Numbered from the stretch's first letter, positions 30,840 to 47,202 are shown. The stretch is DNA of 64,000 nt from Gemmatimonadaceae bacterium (GCA_022843265.1 JALHNZ010000013.1:1-64000), one strand, 5' to 3'. Notes: generated by a model from the letters alone, not told the origin. A program made the numbers and translations.

Positions 30840-31739
30840 ATGGCTCGTTTGCAGTTTTTGTGGAGTGTGCTGCGCGGCACAGTTTCGGAGGCGCTCGACG
30901 ACAATTTGTTGCGCCTGAGCGCCGCGCTCTCCTACTACGCCATCTTTTCGCTCGCACCGCTGTTGCTGATCGCCGTGTCAGTTGCCGGGCTGGTGTTTGG
31001 TGCAGATGCAGCATCTGGTGTGCTGGCTGATGAACTCACCGCGAGCATGGGCAAACCTGCGGCGGAGACGGTGCAGGAGTTAATCAAGAACTCACGTCGA
31101 CCGTCTGACAACATTCTCGCCGCTGTCGTGGGCGTGGCGATGTTGTTGTTTGGTGGAAGCGGTGTCTTCCTGCAGTTGCAGGACGCACTGAACACCGTGT
31201 GGGGATTGAGAACGCGTGCAGGGTCCGGCATTCGCGGCATGATCAGAAACCGACTGCTGTCGTTCTCCATGGTGCTCGGCGGGGGATTCCTCTTGCTCGT
31301 GTCGCTCGGGCTCAGCACCGCCCTACACGCCGCGAGCAACTGGCTCGCCAACGTGGCGCCATTGCATCCGGTGGTGTGGAGCCTGCTCGGCAGCGCCGCT
31401 TCTTTCCTCGTGATCACGCTGTTGTTCGCGACGATTCTGCGCGTGCTGCCAGACGCCGACATTGCGTGGAAGGATGTGTGGCTTGGTGCGGTGGCCACGT
31501 CGCTACTCTTCTCACTCGGCGAGTACGTGCTGAGCTGGTATCTGGGGCGCGAAGCAACCTCATCCAGCTATGGCTCGGCTGGTGCGCTCGTGCTCATTCT
31601 GCTCTGGGTGTACTACTCGTCAATCATTCTGCTCTTTGGCGCTGAGTTCACGCAGGTACTCGCCAGCGCCCGCGGCCGCGAGATATCGCCCACTGACCGT
31701 GCAGTGCGAGTCGAGGTGTCGGTGATTGAACAGGAGTAG
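30840..31739 (+). CDS. YihY/BrkB-family membrane protein
   Basis: A 299-residue inner-membrane protein with about six helices. Family-typical segments are NLLRLSAALSYYAIFSLAPLLLIAVSVAGLVFG, the short LFGGSGVFLQLQDALNTVWG, WSLLGSAASFLVITLLFATILRVLPDADIAWKDVWLGA and ATSSSYGSAGALVLILLWVYYSSIILLFGAEFTQVLA. These match the YihY (formerly called ribonuclease BN) family. The true function is unknown; no nuclease motif is visible. It is divergent from SRPBCC-2, and the 152-bp gap should hold both promoters. Confidence 0.9.
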   Translation: MARLQFLWSVLRGTVSEALDDNLLRLSAALSYYAIFSLAPLLLIAVSVAGLVFGADAASGVLADELTASMGKPAAETVQELIKNSRRPSDNILAAVVGVAMLLFGGSGVFLQLQDALNTVWGLRTRAGSGIRGMIRNRLLSFSMVLGGGFLLLVSLGLSTALHAASNWLANVAPLHPVVWSLLGSAASFLVITLLFATILRVLPDADIAWKDVWLGAVATSLLFSLGEYVLSWYLGREATSSSYGSAGALVLILLWVYYSSIILLFGAEFTQVLASARGREISPTDRAVRVEVSVIEQE

Positions 31740-32655: not shown

Positions 32656-34146
32656 TTAGCGCACGTTGATCCAGATGGGATTTGAGTAGAACCACAGATC
32701 CTGCCACATGTCTTCCCCTTTCGGGTCAGGCAGTGGTTCAAGCTCGTTCGTGTTCGTGCCGCGCACGCGCAGGTAGCTGTTGCGCTGCACGCCGCGCACA
32801 AGATGCGACATTACGAGGTACTCCCCGTCTACCGTCCACTGGTTCGGCGAAAAGCGTTGCACGACGCGAGTGGTGGGATTGCGGTCGAGCGTTCGGTCAG
32901 CAGATGGGCCCACAACCTCACCCATGATCAGATCAACGCGAACCACACTGGGAGTATTGCCACGATGATTCGCCGCGAGCGGATCGCGGACTCGGATCGT
33001 GACTTCGATATCCTGTGTGCCGCCAAGCGACAGTGTCCCGCCAATGGATGCCGTTGCCGATCCCTGACCGGCGCGCTTCACGGTCACGTCGAGTTCGCTG
33101 ATCAGATCTCCCGTCGTCACGAATACACGGCCGTTGCGAATCCCGTCAAGAATGTCAGCGTGTGTGGGACGCGCAAGCACGTAGGTTTTTGAGAACTCAC
33201 CGGGCCAGAAATCACTCCCCCCTTCACTGTAGTGACGGTGCGAGTCCGACGTCGACGTAACAAACCACTTCCGTCCCTCACCAAGCATCGAATCCCAGAA
33301 ACCGCCGAGAATCGCCGTCATCTGATCAAACCCACCAAGCGTTGGCGAGTTGCTGTAACCGCCGCGTGATCCAGTTGAATCAATAGAACCATCACGGTTG
33401 AGCGCGCTCGCCTGATGTCCGGGCGCGCCCTCCATCCCCACGGCAACCTGTGGTGCGGTATCGTTCCAGTCGCGAAACTCACGCGGCGAATACAGTCCAT
33501 ACGAGCCAACACCACGCGCCGAACGCGACGGATGATTGCCAATCACGACGGGCGGCGTTGGCAAACCACGCATATACGTAAGCGCCTCAAGCATTTTGGG
33601 TTCGGTATCCCTCGCGGTATCGCGCGGATACGCATCGCGCTTCGAAAAGCGGGACTCAATGTCACGCAGCGTCTGCCGTTCAGCCGGCGTGTTCGGCATG
33701 ATCATGCTGCTGTGATCTGCACCCGGTGTGTCGAACTCCATGCCGTAGAACTGCACAACGTCTGGCACCTCGTTGCGCGATTTCAGCAGTGCGGGATAGG
33801 CCTGTTCGTAGTTCAGCTTCGCATGGTTCGGCCCACCGTGATCCGTAGAGACCATCCAGCGCAGTCCATGTTCGCGCGCTTTGCTCGCATTCATGGAGAT
33901 CGCGTAGCGCCCATCGGCACCGAGGATCGGCGCCGGCGGCTCCGAGCTGCCTTCGGCAGGCAACGAATATCCGGTGCTGAACTCGCTGTGAATGTGATGA
34001 TCACCAGCAAGCCATGCGCGGCCATCCGACTCCCGCGACGGCTCGGCGCCGCGTGGCGAGATCACGGCGCAGGCCACAACCGCTCCCAGCATGGTCAGGG
34101 CGAACAGGTTTCGCGCTCGTCGCGGAGCGAAAGAGTAGGTAGACAT
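32656..34146 (-). CDS. PHP-fold (CehA/McbA-like) metallohydrolase lipoprotein
   Basis: A protein of about 496 residues starting at MSTYSFAPRRARN, with a hydrophobic core and a good lipobox VVAC, so probably a lipoprotein. The PHP metal-binding signature appears as GDHHIHSEFSTGY, followed by WMVSTDHGGPNHA and, later, TSTSDSHRHYSEGG. This matches the CehA/McbA family of PHP phosphoesterase-like hydrolases, which cleave esters or carbamates in some members. A C-terminal beta region holds the long insertion (ITVRVRDPLAANHRGNTPSVVRVDLIMGEVVG). The substrate is unknown. Downstream genes are on the same strand; the Mrp operon stop lies 62 bp away. Confidence 0.82.
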   Translation of the reverse strand: MSTYSFAPRRARNLFALTMLGAVVACAVISPRGAEPSRESDGRAWLAGDHHIHSEFSTGYSLPAEGSSEPPAPILGADGRYAISMNASKAREHGLRWMVSTDHGGPNHAKLNYEQAYPALLKSRNEVPDVVQFYGMEFDTPGADHSSMIMPNTPAERQTLRDIESRFSKRDAYPRDTARDTEPKMLEALTYMRGLPTPPVVIGNHPSRSARGVGSYGLYSPREFRDWNDTAPQVAVGMEGAPGHQASALNRDGSIDSTGSRGGYSNSPTLGGFDQMTAILGGFWDSMLGEGRKWFVTSTSDSHRHYSEGGSDFWPGEFSKTYVLARPTHADILDGIRNGRVFVTTGDLISELDVTVKRAGQGSATASIGGTLSLGGTQDIEVTIRVRDPLAANHRGNTPSVVRVDLIMGEVVGPSADRTLDRNPTTRVVQRFSPNQWTVDGEYLVMSHLVRGVQRNSYLRVRGTNTNELEPLPDPKGEDMWQDLWFYSNPIWINVR

Positions 34147-34208
34147 AAGACAAGTGTAGGGGGACCCGGGAGGTCCAATAGAGCCAGGAAACGCCCGTGA
34201 CAAAATCG

Positions 34209-35996
34209 CTACGATGCACCAAACCGGAAAAGCAGCAACAGCATCACAACCAACACGCCGAACACTATTGGCGCCACACTTCGCAACGCGTCGTCGGCTC
34301 GCGCGGGATGCTCGACCCGAACCCTGGCGCGAAGCGACTGAAGCGCGACGATAACAGGCGCGGCAACCGCGCCGCTTAGTGTGGGACTCGCGCCGCTCTT
34401 CGCGCGCTCGCTTGGATCACGTCCAATTCCTGTCCCCTGCGCTCGCACCCAATGCCAGAGCGCGCGAAGCGGAACAAGCAGGTCGCCTGAAGGCACGCGC
34501 CACAACGGTAGCAAACGTTGAGATGAAGCCCACGCGGCGGCACCCACCAGTACCAATGCCAGCGCGATTGGCCACATGAGTGAGACAGCGTCCAACCATT
34601 CGGCACCGGGCCAGGCGGGGGCCGCGCTCGGCAGGCCGAGTGACCACACCCCCAGCACAACGAGCCCCACTGACATCAGCCAACCAACGGGCCATGACGA
34701 AACGACCTCGCCTTCTGCCGTTTCGTGCGCAAGACACCAGAGGGCGCGCACCACGAGCAGCGTGGTGCCAGCCGCAGCGAGCGAGAGTGCCGTGCCAAGC
34801 CACGGCCACACACTCGCCACATCGTACAATGCGTACTTGGTCACGAGCTTGGCCGCCGCGCCGCTCGTGAAGGGGGCACCAGCAAGCGACGCACCAACGA
34901 GAGCGCACAACGAGACGACCAGCACTCGACTGAATCGGTCTGAGCCTCGTGCGGTGTCGACACCAAGAAAGAGTGACGCTTTCGCGAGCCCGTGATGCAC
35001 CGCAAACAGGGTAACCGCGCCGATCGCGAGCGGCGCGATAGACGGAGTGTGCAACGCCGCACCAATCGGCACCATAAGCAATCCCATCTGACTGATACTC
35101 GAGTAGCCCAGCACCGTGACAGACGCATGCTGCATGATGCCGACCAAAGCGCCGCCAAACGCACCCGTGAGCCCCACTACAATGATGAACGCACCGAGCG
35201 TGGGCAACGAAACAGTGCCGAGCGGGAGCGTACTCAACATGCCGAGCACGCCCGCATTGATCATCGCGCCACCGAGCACCGCCGCCACGGGTGGTGGTGC
35301 ATGTGTATATGCGCCCGGTAGCCAGAAGTGCAGGCCTACCACGGCGGTCTTCACACCAAAGCCCATCCACAAACAGAGCGTTGCGATCGCGGCGTGCGAC
35401 GACGTCGCAATGGCCACGGGAACGTCCGTGAGTAGCGGACTGGAGAGACCACGGGTGGCAATCAGCAATCCGCTCAGAATCAGCACTTCGCCGAACACGG
35501 TCATCGCCACATACACTCGCCCCGCGGCGAACGCGTCGTCGGTCCGCGTGTGCACCACCAGCAGATACGCGCTAAACGACATCAGCGCGAAAAACGTGTA
35601 GAAACCAGCGACATCCTGCACGAGCATCGCCGCGACGTTGCCGGTCATGGCGAGCAGCCATCCGAGTTGCAACGAGGTGCGATGCGTTCCGTCAACAAAG
35701 CGCGTTCGCATGTGCAGTCCGGCCAGTATCCAGACCAGCGCCGCGGCCGCGAGCAGCGCACGACGCGCCGGATCAATTTCCCAGACACTGCCGAGTAACA
35801 ACCACGGCAGTTCGAGGCGTATGCCTTGAGTAGCACCAAGCGCAGCGATGAGCGCGGGAATGGGCGCGAGCGTTACAAGCCACGACCACCACGATGCGTC
35901 TTGTAGCGTGCCGCGAAACACGGCGCTCGTGGCCAGCATCGTTGCCAGAGCCAGAGGCCACGCAACGGTTAGCACAAGCAGCACGACCCCGATCAT
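34209..35996 (-). CDS. third MrpD/NuoL-like antiporter subunit, degenerate
   Basis: A 595-residue protein with about 14-16 helices in the proton-pumping-MrpDM family. The TM7 Lys-His region is kept (VKTAVVGLHFWLPGAYTH). However, the position of the conserved TM5 Glu reads FFALMSFSAYLLVVH, where its paralogue has FYELLTLSTYPLVVH, so Glu is replaced by Ala. The TM8 His and Lys (LLHAVAVVKAG in the paralogue) are replaced by Gly and Asn (LGGAMINAG). It therefore may be a structural subunit that does not itself move protons. It starts with ATGA overlap and closes the operon; its C-terminal extra helix could be an added anchor. Confidence 0.78.
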   Translation of the reverse strand: MIGVVLLVLTVAWPLALATMLATSAVFRGTLQDASWWSWLVTLAPIPALIAALGATQGIRLELPWLLLGSVWEIDPARRALLAAAALVWILAGLHMRTRFVDGTHRTSLQLGWLLAMTGNVAAMLVQDVAGFYTFFALMSFSAYLLVVHTRTDDAFAAGRVYVAMTVFGEVLILSGLLIATRGLSSPLLTDVPVAIATSSHAAIATLCLWMGFGVKTAVVGLHFWLPGAYTHAPPPVAAVLGGAMINAGVLGMLSTLPLGTVSLPTLGAFIIVVGLTGAFGGALVGIMQHASVTVLGYSSISQMGLLMVPIGAALHTPSIAPLAIGAVTLFAVHHGLAKASLFLGVDTARGSDRFSRVLVVSLCALVGASLAGAPFTSGAAAKLVTKYALYDVASVWPWLGTALSLAAAGTTLLVVRALWCLAHETAEGEVVSSWPVGWLMSVGLVVLGVWSLGLPSAAPAWPGAEWLDAVSLMWPIALALVLVGAAAWASSQRLLPLWRVPSGDLLVPLRALWHWVRAQGTGIGRDPSERAKSGASPTLSGAVAAPVIVALQSLRARVRVEHPARADDALRSVAPIVFGVLVVMLLLLFRFGAS

Positions 35997-37504
35997 TGTG
36001 TGTACACCCGCGCCACCACCAACATCGCCCAGCGCAACGGACTGTACGGCATGTTCGCAAAGACGCCAGCACCCACGGTGAAGACGGCCGTGGCAATGGT
36101 TGGAATGAGAAGCCAGCGATTGGTTTCGCCCGTTCCGAACGAGTGCTCATCCGGCCATGGGGCAGTCTGCGGACGGAACCAGAGACGATGCACGATCGGC
36201 AGGAAATACGCCGCATTGAGCAGACTGCTGAGCACGAGCACACCGAGCACCCAGGGCATTCCTGACTCAAGCGCACCGAGCCCGAGATACCACTTGCTGA
36301 CAAATCCGGCGAGGGGCGGCACCCCGATCATTCCAAACGCACCAATCGTGAACGCCGCACTCGTGACGGGCATACGACGTCCAGCGCCATCGAGCTCCGC
36401 GATATCATGCACGCCCAGTGTTTCCGCGTAGTTTCCCGCGCAGAAGAAGAGCGTGATTTTCATCAACCCCTGATGCAGCAGGTGCGCCAGACCACCGATG
36501 GATCCCCACGGCCCAAAGAGCGCAATGCCGAGCGCAATGTACGACACCTGGCTGATGGTGGAGTAGGCGAGTCGTTTCTTGATTTCCGTTTGAAAGAGCG
36601 CGCGCACCGAGCCCCAGAGAATCGTTATGCTGGCGAGTACGGCCAGCGGAAACAACACGCCGAGCGCCTGCGCCGTTTCTACACCGTAGACGTTGTACAC
36701 GACGCGAACAATGCCAAACGCGCCGGCTTTCACCACGGCCACGGCGTGCAGCAACGCACTCACCGGTGCCGGTGCCACCATGGCAATGGGAAGCCAGCCG
36801 TGCAATGGGACCAACGCGGCCTTCACCCCAAGGCCGGCGATCAACAACCAGAAGGCGACGCGCAGCAGTGTTGCATCGTACGACGCTTCGCTCACCAGTG
36901 CGCCCGTGTCTGCGAACGACACGTCACCCACAAGACTCGTGAACAGCGCGACGCCAACGAGCAACACGGCACCGCCACCGATCGTGTAGCGCAAATACGT
37001 TCGGCCCGCATTGAGTGACTTGGGTGTGCCACGGTGCACAACCAGCGGGTAAGTGGACAACGTCAACAGTTCATAAAAGACGAGAAACGTGACAAGATTG
37101 CCCGCCAGCGCAATTCCCATCGTGCTCGCCACACACAGACTGAAGAACCCGAAGAACCGACTACGATTGGGCGCACCTTCGAGATAGCCAATCGCGTAAA
37201 TGGTGGTGAACAACCACAGGGCCGCCGACAGACCGGCAAAGAGCATGGACATGGCGTCGGCTCGCAACACGAAGTCCACGCCGGGCATCATGCCAAAGCG
37301 CAGTTCGTAGTTGTTGCCAAACGCAACACCCCACGTCATGTACGCCACCAACGCAAGCTTCACAACAGCCGCGCCAAGATTGAGCACGGTGCGTACGCCT
37401 TGTCGGTGTTCGGCGAGCAACATGATCAGCAACGCCGGCACCAATGACGTGCCGAGCACGGCGAGCGGCAACCACCAGCCGCTGATCTCCGGAATGGGGC
37501 TCAC
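35993..37504 (-). CDS. MrpA-N/NuoL-like antiporter subunit
   Basis: A 503-residue multi-helix protein of the proton-pumping family. I take the GTG at 37504 (VSPIPEISGWWLPLAVLG), which overlaps the preceding stop as GTGA; the track start has 89 unlikely residues. TM5 Glu (FLVFYELLTLSTYPLVVH), the TM7 Lys/His (GVKAALVPLHGWLPIAM) and TM8 His/Lys (ALLHAVAVVKAGAFG) are all present, so it should be an active cation/proton channel. The TM8 His is typical of NuoL, MbhH and MrpA N-terminal halves, so this may replace the missing MrpA core. Confidence 0.85.
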   Translation of the reverse strand: MSPIPEISGWWLPLAVLGTSLVPALLIMLLAEHRQGVRTVLNLGAAVVKLALVAYMTWGVAFGNNYELRFGMMPGVDFVLRADAMSMLFAGLSAALWLFTTIYAIGYLEGAPNRSRFFGFFSLCVASTMGIALAGNLVTFLVFYELLTLSTYPLVVHRGTPKSLNAGRTYLRYTIGGGAVLLVGVALFTSLVGDVSFADTGALVSEASYDATLLRVAFWLLIAGLGVKAALVPLHGWLPIAMVAPAPVSALLHAVAVVKAGAFGIVRVVYNVYGVETAQALGVLFPLAVLASITILWGSVRALFQTEIKKRLAYSTISQVSYIALGIALFGPWGSIGGLAHLLHQGLMKITLFFCAGNYAETLGVHDIAELDGAGRRMPVTSAAFTIGAFGMIGVPPLAGFVSKWYLGLGALESGMPWVLGVLVLSSLLNAAYFLPIVHRLWFRPQTAPWPDEHSFGTGETNRWLLIPTIATAVFTVGAGVFANMPYSPLRWAMLVVARVYTQ

Positions 37505-38994
37505 GTTCCACCCGCCATCACGCGAAGCCCGCTGGTCATGGTAGACAACGGCGCCTGACTTGCCAGTCCGAGCGCAATGGCCATGGCGGCCAGCGTGAGC
37601 GCCACCCAATCGTAGCCGCGCGGCGTGGGCGTAAACTGCGAATCCTTGCTCTCGACAAACGATTCGCGAAACACACGAAACACATAACCTGCGGTGAGCA
37701 ATCCTCCGCTCAGCAACACACACAACCAGAACCACTGACCACTCGCGAGCGCGCTCTGCAGCAGCAACCACTTGGCGTTGAATCCGCCACTTGGTGGTAG
37801 TCCCATCAGACTGACGCCCGCGAGTCCGAACGCGAACAACGACATGGGCATGTGTCGGCCAATACCGGCCAGATCAGCCACACCACCGCGACCGGCGGCC
37901 GCGATCAGCGTGCCGCTGGCCAGAAACATCGCGGACTTTGCAAACGCGTGCGCGACCAGATGCAACAACATGCCTTGCGTCGCAAGCGCCGCCGCCGACA
38001 CACCAGTGCCTACGGCCAGCGGGAAAAACAGAAACAAATATCCCAGCTGCGCTACCGTCGAGTGCGCCACGAGCATTTTCAGTTTCGGTTCACGCAGCGC
38101 CTGCCAGCCGCCCCAGAGCACCGCACCGGCACCTAACACTCCAAGTCCTTGCGCGGCGAGCGGTGTCACAGCCTCTGGCGCCACGTCAAACCACAAGCGA
38201 AACAAAATGTAGAACGAACCTTTGACCACGAGCGCTGACAGCAAGGCGCTCACGGGCGTGAGCGCGACGCCATGCGCGGGCGGAAGCCAACCGTGCAGCG
38301 GAAACAGCGCCGTCTTGAGACACAACCCAATCGTCATCAGCGCAATCGCCAGTTGGGTCAGTGGCTCTCGCGCGATCAGTTCTGCCAACTCCGGGAGCGC
38401 CAGCGTTCCGTACGCGGCATAGATGAGAGCTACACCCAGCAGATAGGCCAGCGAGCCGAGCAACGCGGCCATGAGGTAGCGCAATGCCGACGACAATGCC
38501 GTTTCACTACCACCGAGCGCGACAAGCCCAACCGCCGACAATCCGAGCAGTTCAAGTCCGACGTACAAGTTGAAGAGGTCGCCAGCCAGCCAAATGCCGT
38601 TGAGCGATGTCACGAGCAGCCAGAACAGCGGCCAAAAATAGCGCGGCGTCTCGGCGTCAGCGTCGTGAGCGGCGCGTTCAGTAGTCATCACGTACACCGC
38701 GCACGCGGCCGACACCACCGCCGTGAGCAGCACGAGCGTGACGGCGAGACCATCAGCCCGTAATCCGATACCGAGTGGCGCGCTCCAGCCGCCCAGCGCG
38801 TGCGCGGCGGGACCGCTGCGTGCCACTGATGTGTACAGCGCAACGCCAAGCGCGACGTGCAGCAAGACGCCAATGGCGTGCACCGCGATCGTCAATGCTC
38901 CGCGACGTGACTCGATGAGCACGGCAATGACCGCCCACGCGAGCGGCGCAACCAGTAGCCATGGCAAGAGCTGCCCTGCGCTGACAGCCGTCAC
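37501..38994 (-). CDS. mrpD: Na+/H+ antiporter subunit D-like
   Basis: A 497-residue protein of about 14 helices with the MrpD/NuoM pattern: TM5 Glu in LYVGLELLGLSAVGLVALGG, TM7 in CLKTALFPLHGWLPPAHGVALTPVSALLSALVVKGSFY (Lys, His and second Lys kept). No TM8 His, as in MrpD (family-known MrpD has Thr/Lys there). It should form one of the ion channels of the complex. GTG start at 38994; no better in-frame start exists upstream. It stands 22 bp after the MrpC stop. Confidence 0.85.
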   Translation of the reverse strand: MTAVSAGQLLPWLLVAPLAWAVIAVLIESRRGALTIAVHAIGVLLHVALGVALYTSVARSGPAAHALGGWSAPLGIGLRADGLAVTLVLLTAVVSAACAVYVMTTERAAHDADAETPRYFWPLFWLLVTSLNGIWLAGDLFNLYVGLELLGLSAVGLVALGGSETALSSALRYLMAALLGSLAYLLGVALIYAAYGTLALPELAELIAREPLTQLAIALMTIGLCLKTALFPLHGWLPPAHGVALTPVSALLSALVVKGSFYILFRLWFDVAPEAVTPLAAQGLGVLGAGAVLWGGWQALREPKLKMLVAHSTVAQLGYLFLFFPLAVGTGVSAAALATQGMLLHLVAHAFAKSAMFLASGTLIAAAGRGGVADLAGIGRHMPMSLFAFGLAGVSLMGLPPSGGFNAKWLLLQSALASGQWFWLCVLLSGGLLTAGYVFRVFRESFVESKDSQFTPTPRGYDWVALTLAAMAIALGLASQAPLSTMTSGLRVMAGGT

Positions 38995-39016
38995 GCCGAG
39001 ACCGCCAACATGGTGG

Positions 39017-39316
39017 TCACGACTGATCTTCCGGGAGTGCCGTGCTCCGACTCAACGCAAACCAGCGACGCAGCAGTATGATGGCCAATGCGGTTGCCGA
39101 GACGGCCACCACGATACCCGTCAGCACGAGCGCTTGCGGCACGGGGTCAGGTCCTCGGCCGTCTTGAGCGAGGCCGACAAGAATAAGGAAGGTGCCGCCG
39201 CCCATCACATTAAACGCCAGCAAGCGACGCAGCAGATGCGTGTGCGTGAGAAAGGCATACATCGCCATGGCAAACAGCACCACGCCCACGTAGGCATAGA
39301 GGCGATCAGCGTTCAT
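39017..39316 (-). CDS. mrpC: Na+/H+ antiporter subunit C-like (NuoK-like)
   Basis: A 99-residue protein with three helices (LYAYVGVVLFAMAMYAFL; LLRRLLAFNVMGGGTFLILVGLA; VPQALVLTGIVVAVSATALAIILLRR). It matches MrpC/MnhC/NuoK, with LAFNVMGGG corresponding to the conserved second-helix region and DPVPQALVLTGIVV to the third. Its ATG overlaps the end of the upstream MrpB-type gene by 4 bp. It probably links the pump subunits to the rest of the membrane arm. Confidence 0.88.
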   Translation of the reverse strand: MNADRLYAYVGVVLFAMAMYAFLTHTHLLRRLLAFNVMGGGTFLILVGLAQDGRGPDPVPQALVLTGIVVAVSATALAIILLRRWFALSRSTALPEDQS

Positions 39317-40011
39317 GCCTCGCCTCGTTGCGCGGGTGCTGCGGCAGGCCGCGACTGCGGTGCGTTGTCAAACAGACTGAACAACACTACGGCAATAGAG
39401 AGCGTAAGCGCGGCTTCGATCATCAGAATGAGCGCGCCTGCCCACGCCGGTGGATACGCCAACAGCGGTTGACCAGCCAACAGCGTTCCAGCGGCCACGA
39501 GCAAGAATACCGACAGCCCGAAGACAACAACCACGCGCGACGCCAGACGGTCGTCGACCGACAACACGGCAAGTCCGGACAATCGCAGCAACACCGCTGC
39601 GCCCGCGAGCACAGAGCCCGCCTGAAAGGCACCGCCAGGTCGAGTGCTGCCAGCCCACAGCAGGTACGCCGCCACGAGCACCAGGAGCGGAGTAATCCGC
39701 CACACGAACGTATCGAGAATCAGATACGGTTGGCTCGCAGGCATGCGCTCGCGAGGCGTATCCCGCAACGCGAGCGCAACCACAGCAGCGGCGAGCAAGA
39801 CCGCGATTTCAAGGAGTGTATCGTAGCTTCGAAAGTTGAGCAGTACGGCGGTGATGTCGTGACTCACCCCGCTCGCTGGCATGGCTTCTCGCACAAGCGC
39901 GGGTAATGACACCGTGGGGATTGAACGCACGCCAATGGCCTGCCAGAGCGCGATACCGACCGCAACACTCGCCACGCCGGCCACCGCGTGTCGCGCAACA
40001 CGGCGTCTCAC
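39313..40011 (-). CDS. mrpB: MbhE-MnhB fusion (MrpA C-terminal end fused to MrpB)
   Basis: A 232-residue protein in two parts. Residues 1 to about 85 match the MbhE part found at the C-terminus of MrpA: two helices with the tell-tale stretch SHDITAVLLNFRSYDTLLEIAVLLAAAVVAL. Residues about 95-232 match MrpB (MnhB): LILDTFVWRITPLLVLVAAYLLWAGSTRPGGAFQAGSVLAGAAVLL. So the MrpA end is joined to MrpB. The start is GTG, overlapping the upstream stop as GTGA. Confidence 0.82.
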   Translation of the reverse strand: MRRRVARHAVAGVASVAVGIALWQAIGVRSIPTVSLPALVREAMPASGVSHDITAVLLNFRSYDTLLEIAVLLAAAVVALALRDTPRERMPASQPYLILDTFVWRITPLLVLVAAYLLWAGSTRPGGAFQAGSVLAGAAVLLRLSGLAVLSVDDRLASRVVVVFGLSVFLLVAAGTLLAGQPLLAYPPAWAGALILMIEAALTLSIAVVLFSLFDNAPQSRPAAAPAQRGEA

Positions 40012-40298
40012 GTTGATCCCTTAACCGCGTCGTCATCGTTGTGCGATGGTGTCACGCTGCGGCTTTTCAGGTGTCCGATTGCATCCAGCAGCAGCGCACC
40101 CGTGAGTCCCGCGCCAATTGCGGCTTCGGCCAGCGCCAGATCTGGCGCCTGCAAACGCACCCACGCAAGCGCCATCAACAATCCGAACACAACAAACAAC
40201 ACCACACCACGAAAGAGCGTCTTCGAGAACAGCGCACCCGCGGCCGTCGCGACAAGCACGACGCCCAGCACCCAGTCAAACGCCAGCGATATCGTCAT
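40008..40298 (-). CDS. DUF4040/MbhD-like antiporter subunit
   Basis: A protein of about 96 residues starting at MTISLAFDWVLGVV, with ATGA overlap. Three helices with the motif GLLMALAWVRLQAPDLALAEAAIGAGLTGALLLDAI match DUF4040 (MbhD), the module that normally sits inside the C-terminal half of MrpA. Here it stands alone between MrpG and the MbhE-MrpB fusion. It contains the conserved Glu (LALAEAAIG), which in MrpA belongs to the proton path. A charged tail (NDDDAVKG) follows. Confidence 0.82.
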   Translation of the reverse strand: MTISLAFDWVLGVVLVATAAGALFSKTLFRGVVLFVVFGLLMALAWVRLQAPDLALAEAAIGAGLTGALLLDAIGHLKSRSVTPSHNDDDAVKGST

Positions 40299-40606
40299 GC
40301 CGTTGGCTTCTCCGTCCATGGTTGCAGCCCACGCGCACGCGCACGTCGCGCGACGAGCTGACCCGAGGTGGCGCTGCCAGCCAACACCACCAGCCAGACG
40401 AGCAGCAGCTTGAAGCCCTCACTCACGCTCCCCGCCGCGGGCAACAAACCAAGGACCAGCAACCCAAGTCCCAGATTGTCCGCCTTGGTGAGCGCATGCA
40501 CGCGCGTGTACACATCAGGAAATCGGAGCACACCGAGCGTTCCCACCGCGTAGAATCCCGCTCCGCACACGAGCAGCAGTGTCTGCACCCACTCAAGCCA
40601 CGTCAT
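40295..40606 (-). CDS. mrpG: Na+/H+ antiporter subunit G-like
   Basis: A 103-residue protein starting at MTWLEWVQTLLLVCG with GGGAGG at ideal distance; the track start is 103 residues too long. It has three helices with the MrpG/MnhG motif FYAVGTLGVLRFPDVYTRVHALTKADNLGLGLLVLG. It overlaps MrpF by 14 bp and the DUF4040 gene by 4 bp. Required for assembly in known Mrp complexes. Confidence 0.9.
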   Translation of the reverse strand: MTWLEWVQTLLLVCGAGFYAVGTLGVLRFPDVYTRVHALTKADNLGLGLLVLGLLPAAGSVSEGFKLLLVWLVVLAGSATSGQLVARRARARGLQPWTEKPTA

Positions 40607-40928
40607 GATCCTCCCGGTGCTGTGATGGTCGCTGGTTCGGCATCTCCGGCAATTCGCTGGCCGGGTCCGCTCCAACGCGTCCCACAAAGGCCACGACCGC
40701 GAGGACGGCGAGAACCGCCAACACAAGCGCCACATTTCGCAACGCGGGTTCACGAAGCACGACGGAGAGCACGAGCATGATGCCCACACCCGTCGTGCCA
40801 AAGAGTTGTGCGGCGAGCATGCGATCCTCGGCGGCGGGCCCGCGCCACACGCGCAGTAGCCCGGCGACAAGTGTGAGCAGTAGCACGAACGCAATCGCTG
40901 CGCACACCGTGTCAAAACTGTCGCTCAT
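40593..40928 (-). CDS. mrpF: Na+/H+ antiporter subunit F-like
   Basis: A 111-residue protein with three helices: VCAAIAFVLLLTLVAGLLRVWRGP, then AEDRMLAAQLFGTTGVGIMLVLSVV and NVALVLAVLAVLAVVAFVGRV. The motif RVWRGPAAEDRMLAAQLFGT fits MrpF/MnhF. The charged tail is Pro/Gln-rich. Its ATG overlaps the upstream subunit-E gene as ATGA. Confidence 0.87.
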   Translation of the reverse strand: MSDSFDTVCAAIAFVLLLTLVAGLLRVWRGPAAEDRMLAAQLFGTTGVGIMLVLSVVLREPALRNVALVLAVLAVLAVVAFVGRVGADPASELPEMPNQRPSQHREDHDVA

Positions 40929-41392
40929 GTCAGCGTTCGTTGAAAGATCGCGGCAATTCGACGCTCCACCTCACCAAGCTCACCGACCACATCATGCTGT
41001 GCATCGAGGACATGTACGGCCAGGCAATCGTCATCGATCGAGACACAAAGCGAACCCGGCAGCAAACTGAGGGTTCCCGCGAAGAGCACACGGGGTGCCC
41101 CCGCGCCCAGAAGTGTGCGATATGTCACCACCGCCGGCGACAGCGGAATCACCGGCGACAGCGTGCGTCTCGCCACATCCACACCGGCCGCGAGCGAGCG
41201 ACGCATGAAAAACAACAAGAATCCTGGTACCGCGCGCCACTGCACGCGGTGTGCGGGCTGCGGTCGCCAGCGCGTGACCACCACAGCGATCGCAACGATC
41301 ACGGGCGCGCCGATGAGCCAACTGTCCGATGCCCCTCCCGTGAGCACCGCCCAGATGACAACACCGAGGAGTAACGACGACCAGGATATCAT
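40925..41392 (-). CDS. mrpE: Na+/H+ antiporter subunit E-like, first gene of operon
   Basis: A protein of about 155 residues starting at MISWSSLLLGVVIWAVLTGG; the remaining upstream residues of the track ORF are non-coding. Two helices are followed by a cytosolic domain with the MrpE pattern: FMRRSLAAGVDVARRTLSP, then VLFAGTLSLLPGSLCVSIDDDCLAVHVLD. It begins the nine-gene mrpE-F-G-(DUF4040)-(MbhE-B)-C-D-(A-like)-(degenerate D) operon. The 206-bp gap to the divergent Ig-lipoprotein gene should hold the promoter. Confidence 0.87.
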   Translation of the reverse strand: MISWSSLLLGVVIWAVLTGGASDSWLIGAPVIVAIAVVVTRWRPQPAHRVQWRAVPGFLLFFMRRSLAAGVDVARRTLSPVIPLSPAVVTYRTLLGAGAPRVLFAGTLSLLPGSLCVSIDDDCLAVHVLDAQHDVVGELGEVERRIAAIFQRTLT

Positions 41393-41598
41393 ATGAAAAA
41401 ACCCAAGCGAGTCATGCCTTCGATGATAGCACCAAACGTGGCGCTCGTATCGATTTTGGGCGCTCGAGGACCGACACCACGCCGAGGGTGAGCCAGTTTC
41501 CCCCGTTTTCACGCGTGTGGAAGATACTGTGCTGCGGTGCGTCCCCGCAGTGCACGTCCTGCGTTGTCGACGCGGCCCATCCTCCTGGAGCAATTCGC

Positions 41599-43542
41599 AT
41601 GATAGCTCACTCGTTTCGTTGTCGAACTCTCCGTGCGACCTTTGTGTGCCATGTGTTGCTCGCCGCCGCCTGTGCAGGTGGCGACAGTGAGCCCACTCCG
41701 CCGCCGCCAACGCCGGTTGACGCACTGCGTGGTATTGGGCTCTCGCCATCGACTGACAACATCACCGTCGGTGACACTCGGACGCTTACGGCAACGGCAG
41801 ATCGCGCCGCTGCAACTGTGAATGTGTCACTTTCATACGCATCATCTGCGACCGCAGTGGCCACGGTTAACGGCGACGGCGTGGTCACCGCACTCGCACC
41901 CGGCGCAGCCACAATCACCGTCACGGCCGTGGGAAGCGGCGCGGGTTTCGTCACGAATACACGAACCGCAACAGCCAATATCACTGTGGTACCACGGCCT
42001 TCCGCGCTCACCGCGTTCAATGTGAGCCCGGACTCCGCTGTTATTGCGCCAGGCACGACTGTCGCACTGACCACTAGCGTCACAAGTGCTGCGGGCGCAA
42101 CGGTGGTGTACAGTTATGCCACCTCCACACCAGCGGTCGCAGCCGTGAGCAACGCGGGTGTCGTTACAGCACTCACCGGCGGAACGTCAGTCATCAGGGT
42201 AACGGCGAGTGCGACCGGTACTGGACTCGAGCCGAGTACACGCAGCGATTCCGTACTTATTCGTGTCGTACCGCCACCGGCAATCACAATGCTCACACTG
42301 GCTGCGGATTCCGTCGACGTTGTCGCCTTTCGCGAACAGACAGTCAACGCGACAGTGGCCGCTCCGGCGGGTGCACCAACAGCGCTGCTCTCGGCAACGT
42401 CGTCGTCCACGACGACTGCGACGGCCATGACTTCCGGAGGCTCCATTGTCATTACCGGAGCTTCACCAGGTACAGCCACCATCACCGTGCGCGCGAGTGC
42501 CCCGGCGAGTGCAACCTTCGCCGCGGCTTCAGTGGAGCGCCTGTTGCGCGTGCGGGTACTTCCCGCTCCGGATGCGCTGCGCAGTGTATCACTCACACCA
42601 GCGCGAGACACGTTGCAAGCTGGTGACGCGGTGACGCTTACCGTGTCGACCGATCTCGCCACCCCACTCGCAACGGTCACGCGCACGTTTCGTTCGACTG
42701 CCGCAGCTGTTGCAACAGTGAACGCCTCTGGTGTGGTCACGGGCGTGGCGCCAGGCTCTGCATTGATCATTGTGGATGTCACCGCCTCAGCCGCTGGGTT
42801 TACAACGCGAGCGCTGGCTGACACCACACAGATCGTGGTGATCGCTGCACCGGTACTTGGTATCGGCTTCGGCGACGAACAGTTTGCGGCAGCACGCGGC
42901 GGACAGTTTCAGATGGGATCCGTCAATGGAGACGCAGACGAGGTACCGCTGCGGCAGGTGACCACCAATCCGATCCGCATGCAACGCACCGAAGTCACGC
43001 AAGCGCAGTGGCAACAGGTGATGCAAGGCACATCACTCGCAAACCCTTCTGCTGACGCGTCGTGTGGACCCACGTGCCCGGTTGAAACCGTGAGCTGGTT
43101 GGACGTTCAGGAGTTTCTCACGCGCTTGAACGCACAGCAACCAGGAAAGGGGTACCGGCTGCCGACTGAAGCCGAATGGGAGCAGTGGGCGCGTGCTGGC
43201 ACTACGACTGACTATGCTGGCAACGGCGTGCTCGACGACATGGGCTGGTGGTCTGGTAACTCTGGCGGCCGAAAAAAGCCGGTGGCGCAAAAGCGGTCCA
43301 ACGCCTGGGGGCTGTATGACATGCACGGCAATGTGTGGGAATGGGTGAGCGACTGGTACGGTCCGTATATCGCCAACAGCCTTCAAAACCCGACCGGACA
43401 GCCGACCGGCACACAACGTGTGCGTCGCGGTGGTGCCTTCAATAGCACGACGAACAGTCCGCGTTCAGCGAACCGCGGCAGCGGCAATTCTGCCGATTTT
43501 GACCGCGGCTTCCGCGTTGTGATGTCGGTGCTACCCAACTGA
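41599..43542 (+). CDS. Ig-repeat lipoprotein with inactive FGE-fold head
   Basis: A 647-residue protein starting at MIAHSFRCRTLRATFVC (CTGGAG upstream; the track start adds 37 residues). A lipoprotein signal with Cys (LLAAAC) is followed by a Pro-rich spacer (PTPPPPTP) and four Ig-like (Big_2-type) repeats of about 90 residues. Residues from about 420 form an FGE/sulfatase-modifying-factor fold: GGQFQMGSV, RTEVTQAQWQQVM, RLPTEAEWEQWARAG, LYDMHGNVWEWVSDW and the end GFRVVM. Active FGE has two catalytic Cys in the RGGS segment; here it reads RRGGAFNSTTNSPRSANR with no Cys, so it is probably a binding module, not an enzyme. Confidence 0.85.
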   Translation: MIAHSFRCRTLRATFVCHVLLAAACAGGDSEPTPPPPTPVDALRGIGLSPSTDNITVGDTRTLTATADRAAATVNVSLSYASSATAVATVNGDGVVTALAPGAATITVTAVGSGAGFVTNTRTATANITVVPRPSALTAFNVSPDSAVIAPGTTVALTTSVTSAAGATVVYSYATSTPAVAAVSNAGVVTALTGGTSVIRVTASATGTGLEPSTRSDSVLIRVVPPPAITMLTLAADSVDVVAFREQTVNATVAAPAGAPTALLSATSSSTTTATAMTSGGSIVITGASPGTATITVRASAPASATFAAASVERLLRVRVLPAPDALRSVSLTPARDTLQAGDAVTLTVSTDLATPLATVTRTFRSTAAAVATVNASGVVTGVAPGSALIIVDVTASAAGFTTRALADTTQIVVIAAPVLGIGFGDEQFAAARGGQFQMGSVNGDADEVPLRQVTTNPIRMQRTEVTQAQWQQVMQGTSLANPSADASCGPTCPVETVSWLDVQEFLTRLNAQQPGKGYRLPTEAEWEQWARAGTTTDYAGNGVLDDMGWWSGNSGGRKKPVAQKRSNAWGLYDMHGNVWEWVSDWYGPYIANSLQNPTGQPTGTQRVRRGGAFNSTTNSPRSANRGSGNSADFDRGFRVVMSVLPN

Positions 43543-44485: not shown

Positions 44486-44613
44486 GCGCCCTCCCACCTT
44501 GTAGCGATGGGAGTCGATGTCTCTGCACGCTAGCCTCCCTGTAGCGCATGCCACACAGCACGACGCCGCGACGTCGCCTCTGCGTTCACAGAACAGGCCA
44601 GGAGCAGAATACA

Positions 44614-47202
44614 ATGTTTCACAAAACAGTCGGTACGCACGTCAGCGTACCACGAGCGCGTTATTCCATGATTCGCGTGTGCGCCGCGTTGGTTGCCGCC
44701 GCGATTTCGATTTCAGCATGTGACGTGCACGGCGTGAGTGAGCCCGGTTCGCTGACCACGTTGACCATCTCGCCAACCACGCAGTCGCTGCCGATCAATG
44801 GTACGCAGCAGTTTACGGTCGTGGGCAAGGATGCGGCCGGCGTTGACGTCACCGTTTCTCCCACCTGGACGGTCGCGGCGAACGGCGGCACGATCAGCAG
44901 CAGCGGATTGTTTACGGCCGGCACAGCGGTTGGCTCATTTCCCAACACGATTACCGCCACGAGCGGTGGTGTGACTGCGCGTGCATCCATCAACGTGGTC
45001 GCGGGCGCACTCACCACAATCGCCATCACACCAAATCCTGATACGCTCACCGTTGGGCAGACCCGGCAGTTCACTGCCGCCGGTCGCGACGCAGGTGGCA
45101 ATACGGTACCCGTGACGGCAGCGTGGACCGTTGGCACCGCGGGTGGTGGTTCGATTTCGGGCACTGGTCTCTTTACCGCTGGCACCGTTCCGGGCACCTA
45201 CACAAATACCGTGACCGCGTCGAGCGGCAGCACGGTTGGCACCGCGACCGTTGTCGTGAGGGCGGGTGCGCTTGCCAGCATCACCGTCACGCCGTCACCA
45301 GTAACGCTTGCAGTGCGCGGAACACAAACGTTCACGGCGGTAGGTAAGGACGCGAGTGGCAATGTCGTGCCGCTTACAACGACCTGGAGCATCACCTCGG
45401 GTGGAGGCGCCATCACCAGCGCCGGTGTATTCACGGCTGGCGACAGTGTGGGCACATTCACCAACACCGTGCGTGCCACAAGCGGTTCTCTGAGTGGCTC
45501 CGCGACAGTGTCCGTGACGGCCGGTGCCGCCACGACGCTCCTGATCACACCGAATCCGGTCACGCTCGCGACTGGTGCAATGCAGCAGTTCACCGTCGTC
45601 GCACGCGACGCGGGCATGAACATCGTACCCGTGTCGGCGCGCTGGAGTGTCGTCGGTGGCGGTGGGACGATTGACAGCCTGACCGGACGTTACACCGCCG
45701 GATCTGTTGGCGGCACGTTCACCAACACCGTGCGCGCGACGGTTGGCGCGATTGTTGGTTCGGCCACCGTTGTGGTGACGAACGCGCTGACCACCATGAC
45801 CGTTTCGCCGAATCCGGCGGTCGTCATGGTTAATGGCACGCAGCAGTTTACCGCGACGGGTCGCGGTTCAAATGGCGACACGCTCGTCATCGCACCGAAG
45901 TGGAGCGTAGTTGCGGGTGGCGGATCCATCGATTCCATGACGGGTCGATTTACTGCCGGCACAACGACCGGTACTTTCGCCAGCACGGTGCGCGCTACGA
46001 GCGGAGCCATCAACGCCTTCGCAACCGTACAGGTTACGGCGCCAGCTGCGCCGCGGATCGCCACGATCACCGTGTCGCCGACACCAACCGCTGTGCTCAT
46101 CAACGGCACTCGGCAGTTCACGTCGATCGCCAGAGACAGCAGCGGTAACGTGATCACGCACACGCCGGTGTGGTCTGTGGTGGCAGGCGGCGGCACCATT
46201 AATGCAACAACAGGCCTGTTCACCGCCGGCACGCTCGCGGGCACCTACACCAGCACCGTCCGCGCCACCGTTGATTCAGTGTTCGGTTCCGCCACGGTGG
46301 AAGTGCAGAACACGCCGACGCCCGCACTGGCCACGATCACCGTATCGCCGAATCCGGCGTCGATGCTTGTGAACGGCACGCAGACGTTTACCGCAGTAGG
46401 ACGTGATGCGAGCAACAACGTGGTCACATTCACACCGATGTGGTCGGTGACAAATGGCGGCGGTGTCATCAATGCGACAACCGGGCAGTTCACGGCCGGT
46501 GCGACGGCTGGTACGTACGCAAACACGGTGCGCGCCACCAGCGGCAGCATCATGGGCAGCGCAACGGTGACAGTGTTGGCGGGAACACCCGCTCCGCTCA
46601 TCAACCTCGGATCAGCGGCCGGCAGTGGTATCATGGCCGGTTCCACCGTGACCTGCGTAACCGGCGGAACGATCAGCGCCGATGTTAACGTGAGCCCAGG
46701 CAATACCATCAGTGGCTTCGGCCCGTGTGTGATTGCTGGCGTGCAGAATCTGGCCAACGCGGCCGCAGCCAACGCGCAGCTATCGCTGACCAATGCGTAC
46801 AATCAGCTCGCCGCGCTGCCATGTCCGCCGGCGAATGCGATTTCGGCTGACCTTGGCGGTACGACCAAGGCGGCCGGCGTGTACTGCTCGGCCACAAGCA
46901 TCGGCGTGACTGGCCCGCTCACGCTCGACGGCGGCGGTGACTCAAATGCCACGTTTGTCTTTCAGGCCGGCACGTCGCTCATCAGCGCCGGCAACATTGT
47001 GCTGATCAACGGCGCGCAGGCGAAGAACGTGTACTGGCTGGTCGGATCGTCGGCTACTCTCGGTACCGCGTCGGCGTGGAAGGGCAACATCATCGCGCTG
47101 ACGAGCATCACGATGGTTGATAACGCGACTCTTATCGGACGTGCGCTCGCGCGCAATGGCGCGGTCACGCTCGGAACCAACAACGTCATCACACTGCCGT
47201 AA
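44614..47202 (+). CDS. seven-Ig-repeat lipoprotein with DUF3494 ice-binding-type domain
   Basis: An 862-residue surface protein starting at MFHKTVGTHVSVPRARY (AGGAG upstream). The signal ends with a perfect lipobox ISAC. Seven Ig-like (Big_2-type) repeats of about 86-90 residues follow, each like LTTITVSPNPxxLxVNGTQQFTA...GTYTNTVRATSG. The last about 200 residues are a DUF3494 domain: INLGSAAGSGIMAGSTVTC, GGTTKAAGVYCSATSIGVTGPLTLDGGGDSNATFVFQAG, ending VTLGTNNVITLP. DUF3494 is the beta-helix of many ice-binding proteins, but relatives also act as adhesins. Lipid-anchoring plus a long stalk suggests a surface adhesin. The OmpA gene follows 26 bp downstream. Confidence 0.88.
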   Translation: MFHKTVGTHVSVPRARYSMIRVCAALVAAAISISACDVHGVSEPGSLTTLTISPTTQSLPINGTQQFTVVGKDAAGVDVTVSPTWTVAANGGTISSSGLFTAGTAVGSFPNTITATSGGVTARASINVVAGALTTIAITPNPDTLTVGQTRQFTAAGRDAGGNTVPVTAAWTVGTAGGGSISGTGLFTAGTVPGTYTNTVTASSGSTVGTATVVVRAGALASITVTPSPVTLAVRGTQTFTAVGKDASGNVVPLTTTWSITSGGGAITSAGVFTAGDSVGTFTNTVRATSGSLSGSATVSVTAGAATTLLITPNPVTLATGAMQQFTVVARDAGMNIVPVSARWSVVGGGGTIDSLTGRYTAGSVGGTFTNTVRATVGAIVGSATVVVTNALTTMTVSPNPAVVMVNGTQQFTATGRGSNGDTLVIAPKWSVVAGGGSIDSMTGRFTAGTTTGTFASTVRATSGAINAFATVQVTAPAAPRIATITVSPTPTAVLINGTRQFTSIARDSSGNVITHTPVWSVVAGGGTINATTGLFTAGTLAGTYTSTVRATVDSVFGSATVEVQNTPTPALATITVSPNPASMLVNGTQTFTAVGRDASNNVVTFTPMWSVTNGGGVINATTGQFTAGATAGTYANTVRATSGSIMGSATVTVLAGTPAPLINLGSAAGSGIMAGSTVTCVTGGTISADVNVSPGNTISGFGPCVIAGVQNLANAAAANAQLSLTNAYNQLAALPCPPANAISADLGGTTKAAGVYCSATSIGVTGPLTLDGGGDSNATFVFQAGTSLISAGNIVLINGAQAKNVYWLVGSSATLGTASAWKGNIIALTSITMVDNATLIGRALARNGAVTLGTNNVITLP
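44755..46595. repeat. seven tandem Ig-like coding repeats
   Basis: About seven copies of roughly 260 bp inside the adhesin gene, starting near 44755, 45010, 45268, 45526, 45784, 46048 and 46321. They are more alike in protein than DNA. Such arrays can expand or contract by recombination. Confidence 0.7.

Follow-up and report, generated by a model that had tools for sequence, protein, structure and literature searches.

A gene cluster in a 64,000-nucleotide stretch of DNA from a Gemmatimonadaceae bacterium (GCA_022843265.1, JALHNZ010000013.1:1-64000; hereafter the window) raises the question of what is encoded when the parts of the antiporter subunit MrpA are dispersed over separate genes and three large antiporter-like subunits share one operon. 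We consider it very probable that the product is a dispersed (group 3) Mrp/CPA3 cation/proton antiporter, because the operon carries the full Mrp domain set, its cation-path carboxylates are conserved, the proton paths of two large subunits (D1 and L) appear intact, the operon recurs in other genomes, and no NiFe hydrogenase was found. As such it adds to a class of antiporters that is common and little studied. The residue change in the third large subunit, D3, may be the only point that specialists do not expect.

Operon layout and domain content

Between 41392 and 34209 the minus strand carries nine open reading frames (ORFs), arranged head to tail as E-F-G-DUF4040-(MbhE+MnhB)-C-D1-L-D3, the order that a preliminary description of this DNA had given. 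Its further remark that the ORFs mostly overlap by 4 bp holds at six of the eight junctions; F and G overlap by 14 bp, and a 22-bp gap lies between C and D1. Pfam matches for all nine are above the curated cut-offs (aa, amino acids; TM, transmembrane):

40925..41392, minus strand: mrpE-like subunit, 155 aa (Pfam MNHE, 2.2e-23)
40593..40928, minus strand: mrpF-like subunit, 111 aa (Pfam MrpF_PhaF, 7.1e-11)
40295..40606, minus strand: mrpG-like subunit, 103 aa (Pfam PhaG_MnhG_YufB, 1.8e-23)
40008..40298, minus strand: stand-alone DUF4040/MbhD subunit, 96 aa (Pfam MbhD, 9.8e-19; PDB 6cfw_D, 6u8y_D)
39313..40011, minus strand: MbhE-MnhB fusion (BE), 232 aa, six predicted TM helices (Pfam MbhE, 4.2e-6; MnhB, 2.7e-12)
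39017..39316, minus strand: mrpC/NuoK-like subunit, 99 aa (Pfam Oxidored_q2, 1.4e-14)
37501..38994, minus strand: D1, MrpD-type antiporter-like subunit, 497 aa (Pfam Proton_antipo_M, 4.4e-48)
35993..37504, minus strand: L, MrpA-N/NuoL-like antiporter-like subunit, 503 aa (Pfam Proton_antipo_M, 4.6e-55; Proton_antipo_N, 5.8e-6)
34209..35996, minus strand: D3, third antiporter-like subunit, 595 aa (Pfam Proton_antipo_M, 2.5e-26)

The complete Mrp domain set (MrpE, F, G, MbhD, MbhE, MnhB, C and at least two antiporter-like subunits) is thus present in one operon without redox genes. The profile check that had been set beforehand for the two unusual ORFs came out as anticipated, the 96-residue ORF matching MbhD and the 232-residue ORF matching MbhE. 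The MbhE match is the weakest of all and barely clears its cut-off of 27.0 bits, with 27.2 bits. It is backed by independent evidence: BE best matches Pyrococcus furiosus MbsE both by sequence (PDB 6u8y_E, a 235-aa chain) and by fold, the same chain being the best Foldseek match of a BE model with a predicted local distance difference test score (pLDDT) of 71.5. In MbsE, helices TMH1-2 belong to the proximal module and TMH3-6 to the distal one (PMC7684303); BE fits this layout, with two long predicted helices in its MbhE part and another four in its MnhB part. The NCBIfam models PRK12507, PRK12567, PRK12504 and PRK07234 span these fused domains.

MrpA is therefore dispersed as described, with DUF4040 alone and MbhE fused to MnhB. 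A full-length mrpA, whether adjacent or elsewhere, would have spoken against this reading, and we rejected that possibility: domain searches of the 95%-complete genome holding the operon found no second MbhD and no second MnhB, the sole match in each case being the operon's own, so no full-length mrpA is expected elsewhere. The arrangement is far from chance, because the same gene order recurs in dozens of genomes. Promoter and terminator scans around the operon gave counts at or below shuffled expectation.

The predicted cation path and two proton paths

Three carboxylates of the MrpA C-terminus, E706, D792 and E796, have been named essential for cation transfer (PMC7419157). Alignment and the DTLxE motif identify Glu58 of DUF4040 as the equivalent of MrpA E706 and MbsD E58, and Asp64 and Glu68 of BE as those of D792 and E796, so that the stand-alone DUF4040 subunit is the equivalent of part of the MrpA C-terminus and all three carboxylates are present across DUF4040 and BE. 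Conservation is close to complete, with Glu58 kept in 98 of 99 relatives and each of the BE residues in 93 of 93.

Two antiporter-like subunits carry the full set of proton-path residues. These are the TM5 glutamate and the lysines of TM7, TM8 and TM12 (GluTM5, LysTM7, LysTM8 and LysTM12), which in D1 are E148, K227, K258 and K408; the key residues of L are E145, K228, H253 (a TM8 histidine), K259 and K404. The set is kept in nearly all relatives of D1 (n=109) and of L (n=117). At the level of sequence, both the cation half and the two proton paths of D1 and L are intact.

From the gene content, the residues, the D3 and BE folds and the conserved gene order we infer an assembly order, ion, direction, stoichiometry and role for D3 along the following lines. 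E, F, G, DUF4040, MbhE-MnhB and C would form the cation-translocating half, with DUF4040-E58, BE-D64 and BE-E68 as its carboxylates, and Na+ (or K+) would leave the cell through it. Protons would enter through D1 and L, the proton motive force driving the exchange, and D3 would stand at the far end as a brace and possibly as a modified third proton path.

The preliminary description had L down as a separate NuoL-like core subunit. The likeness stands at the level of profiles, the L-family hidden Markov model preferring MrpA/NuoL over MrpD, and in the TM8 histidine. On the maximum-likelihood tree the three large subunits D1, L and D3 fall into separate clades, each of them fully supported. D1 groups with MrpD, NuoM and NuoN (support 100/94), whereas MrpA and NuoL form a clade of their own (100/98), and both L and D3 lie outside it in the best tree. 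Topology tests did not reject joining either one to that clade (P value of the approximately unbiased test, p-AU, 0.35 for L and 0.33 for D3).

The divergent third subunit

D3 had been called another D-like subunit, a label that does not fit: it has its own deep clade, an altered residue set and a C-terminal region like that of NuoL and MrpA. The TM5 glutamate, otherwise near-universal, is kept in one of 82 D3 relatives, the distant L056 (L numbers denote loci), and is Ala137 in the window. Position 170 on TM6 is Glu or Asp in 81 of the 82 (E170 here); in the same column the NuoL of this genome has Asp, D1 has Ser, MrpA has Gly, and L has Gly (13) or Ser (1). LysTM7 (K216) occurs in 82/82 and LysTM12 (K383) in 73/82, while LysTM8 is Lys in 66/82 and Asn in the window (Asn247) and its three same-genus relatives. 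Two of the four proton-path residues are thus missing, and an AlphaFold2 model (pLDDT 87.5) puts residue 137 on TM5, residue 170 on TM6 and K216 at the TM7 break. Given these altered TM5, TM6 and TM8 residues, the proton path of D3 is likely to be modified or weak.

The C-terminus of the same model consists of a TM helix (474-492), a poorly predicted stretch (507-561) whose amphipathic character is seen as moment peaks, and a last TM helix (564-594). Foldseek aligned 616-697 columns of the D3 model with NuoL and MrpA, at a query TM-score (TMq) of up to 0.70; alignments with NuoN, NuoM and MrpD chains were less complete (0.60-0.64). At 503 aa, L is too short to hold a lateral helix or C-terminal brace. 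As modelled, the D3 C-terminus (TM15, the horizontal stretch and TM16) probably supplies the brace given by MrpA in ordinary Mrp. Helix HL of the MBS subunit H' keeps the antiporter-like subunits together, being longer or shorter according to how many there are (PMC7684303); by analogy with this horizontal helix, D3 is most likely the cap and brace of the complex.

A more specific reading, which we offer tentatively and regard as rather doubtful, is that of a widespread Mrp class with three antiporter-like subunits in which D3 combines a lateral brace with a proton-path acid moved from TM5 to TM6. If true, the number of protons moved per cation would differ between such exchangers and ordinary Mrp, complex I would have natural variants of its proton path in them, and the D3 path would be further eroded in the window's genus, where the TM8 lysine has become asparagine. 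Several observations weigh against the antiporter reading with D3 as its brace. The brace is predicted at low confidence (pLDDT 54-72 over 520-580), it superposes with NuoL and MrpA only at a large root-mean-square deviation (12-19 Å), and two loci of the same kind (L138, L139) are without D3, which is therefore not always needed.

Whether D3 is structural or active appears about even. It is quite possible that D3 is an inactive cap, leaving the same antiporter with two proton paths like ordinary Mrp; the loss of GluTM5 in 81 of 82 relatives, the asparagine at LysTM8 in the window's genus and the loci where D3 is missing all favor this, but a pure scaffold would not need K216 (82/82), K383 (73/82) or the TM6 acid (81/82) to be conserved. 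Alternatively, though somewhat harder to sustain, D3 may provide a working third path, the TM6 acid taking the place of the TM5 glutamate and more protons passing per cation than in ordinary Mrp. The position of E170 on TM6 and of the invariant K216 at the TM7 break in the model is consistent with this, as is the Asp that the same genome's NuoL has in that TM6 column. That NuoL keeps its TM5 glutamate too, however, and so sets no precedent here for a TM6 acid acting alone, and the window's genus lacks the TM8 lysine. The conserved residue change offers natural mutants for two debated questions, namely how many protons Mrp moves per cation and whether, in complex I relatives, every antiporter-like subunit depends on its TM5 glutamate to pass protons. 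We found no papers on a three-antiporter-like-subunit Mrp with a glutamate-less subunit in a search mostly without subscription journals.

Unlikely alternatives: other ions and a redox partner

It is improbable that the exchanged ion is Ca2+ or an inorganic-carbon-coupled species rather than Na+ or K+. A Thermomicrobium Mrp has been reported to exchange Ca2+ (PMC5703873), and L matches DabB2 weakly, but no DabA-like gene adjoins the operon and the Na+-path carboxylates are fully conserved.

Less likely still is that the operon encodes the ion-pumping arm of an Mbh/Mbs- or complex I-like redox complex whose electron-transfer part is encoded elsewhere: although archaeal MBS has this gene order and divides DUF4040 from MbhE-MnhB in the same way, and complex I likewise has three antiporter-like subunits, no NiFe hydrogenase large subunit was found in the genome or near the operon, the single complex I 49-kDa gene lies on another contig (C78) next to a NuoL-like gene, no redox partner was found among the flanking genes, and redox genes were not seen at the locus in the annotated relatives L073, L074, L076 and L077. 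A hidden hydrogenase or other redox partner was rejected on these grounds. The genome encodes six Proton_antipo_M proteins, three in the operon and three on contigs C78 and C33, which we read as complex I subunits because C78 has the 49-kDa gene. The suggestion that the module resembles Mbh/Mbx without a hydrogenase is borne out, BE matching MbsE best.

Relation to known systems

Read as a dispersed Mrp antiporter, the operon can be placed among described systems. Group 3 Mrp is defined by the presence of all subunits, a dispersed MrpA, an irregular gene order and, often, extra mrpD-like genes (PMC5703873); the window operon has the dispersed MrpA, the irregular order and an extra large subunit. 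Examples come from cyanobacteria, Microbacterium TS-1 (mrpFGBCDDAE) and Candidatus Nitrospira alkalitolerans (PMC5703873, PMC7784846), the last with two extra NuoM/NuoL-like genes after mrpD (PMC7784846), and Na+/H+ exchange is reported for the group 3 case of Aphanothece (PMC5703873, PMC7784846). Likened by description rather than by sequence, these loci share with the window operon the dispersed MrpA and the extra MrpD/NuoL-like genes, while gene orders differ in detail. The group 3 class and the Nitrospira locus are direct precedents for the operon.

In group 1 and 2 Mrp (Bacillus, Dietzia and Anoxybacillus; within the window's phylum, L159-L164) the domains and essential residues are the same, but MrpA is a single large protein with NuoL-like core, DUF4040 and MbhE, and there are two antiporter-like subunits; here the parts are separate genes with no second copy. 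The MBS arm of P. furiosus (MbsA-B-C-D-E-G-H-H') has the same subunit set, with DUF4040 alone (MbsD) and MbhE and MnhB fused (MbsE), but it has two antiporter-like subunits rather than three and an attached redox module, of which none was found here. The gene-order comparison proposed at the outset shows a split as in archaeal MBS and an order that recurs widely.

The closest likeness is to gammaproteobacterial halophiles and alkaliphiles. Loci of Halospina (L081), Marinobacter (L086, L087, L090), Thioalkalivibrio (L094) and Ectothiorhodospira (L137, L152) have the identical gene order and the same DUF4040 and MbhE-MnhB split; D1, L and D3 are each orthologous, and L is 58-69% identical to that of the window. 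D3 differs more, being only about 30-40% identical, and the TM8 lysine is kept in most. In all three subtrees the window's genus is placed next to Halospina, Marinobacter and Halomonas rather than next to the phylum's other lineage (L057), a position that suggests acquisition of the whole operon by horizontal transfer.

Distribution and variants

The preliminary description regarded the operon as a rearranged Mrp form. The arrangement is neither odd nor new but common, and ordinary for its class: it recurs among the best 80 loci and is covered by the group 3 definition (PMC5703873) and the NCBIfam models. The MbhD domain is present in 114 of 395 sampled genomes of the window's phylum, where about a dozen of some 140 MbhD matches lie in frames longer than 750 aa (the size of a whole MrpA) and the rest in shorter frames, and all three same-genus genomes that were examined share the nine-gene order. 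Outside the phylum, searching with an L alignment gave at least 592 matches, of which the best 80 loci were examined. The DUF4040 and MbhE-MnhB split occurs in 30 of these (e.g. Marinobacter, Halospina, Thioalkalivibrio and Ectothiorhodospira), and DUF4040, MbhE and MnhB form one gene in 35. They come mainly from Gammaproteobacteria, with others in Alphaproteobacteria, Betaproteobacteria, Verrucomicrobia, Chloroflexota, Actinomycetota, Bacteroidota and Myxococcota. Several phyla therefore share the operon, and most of the genera that have it are halophiles or alkaliphiles. Annotated plasmids of Rhodobacteraceae, Rubrobacter, Aminobacter and Haloarcula also encode three large subunits, within subunit sets closely similar to this one.

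Some loci depart from this plan. In Halomonas/Vreelandella (L091, L097, L103, L104, L075) and Thiohalocapsa (L118) a reduced locus replaces the nine-gene operon, consisting of one MbhD+MnhC-like fusion of about 226-233 aa followed by D1, L and D3, with E, F, G and MnhB not recognised. In L138 and L139 (Dechloromonas and Burkholderiales metagenome-assembled genomes) the operons stop after L, and the next gene encodes a membrane-bound diguanylate cyclase-like protein. Halochromatium salexigens (L106) has two D3-like genes in tandem after L.

Neighbouring genes

The operon is flanked by genes for an ADH, a BrkB/YihY-like protein, an FGE-sulfatase protein, a response regulator and an ice-binding-like protein. 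These flanks differ from those of the same-genus operons and so gave no shared clue to function. The BrkB/YihY-family membrane protein (30840-31739, plus strand) lies about 3 kb past the operon end; the family comes directly after D3 in the Halomonas-type loci, the five reduced Halomonas/Vreelandella loci named above. A 515-aa ORF with no Pfam match (32656-34203, minus strand) starts within 10 bp of the D3 stop and may be cotranscribed with the operon; it does not adjoin the operon in same-genus relatives. Just upstream of mrpE, on the opposite strand, lies an ORF (41488-43542, plus strand) whose listed start is some 100 bp away from that of mrpE and whose product combines Big_2 Ig-like repeats with a sulfatase-modifying-factor (FGE) domain. 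Farther on, at 44548-47202 (plus strand), a large protein contains numerous repeats that look Ig-like and has an ice-binding-like domain (PF11999) at its C-terminus.

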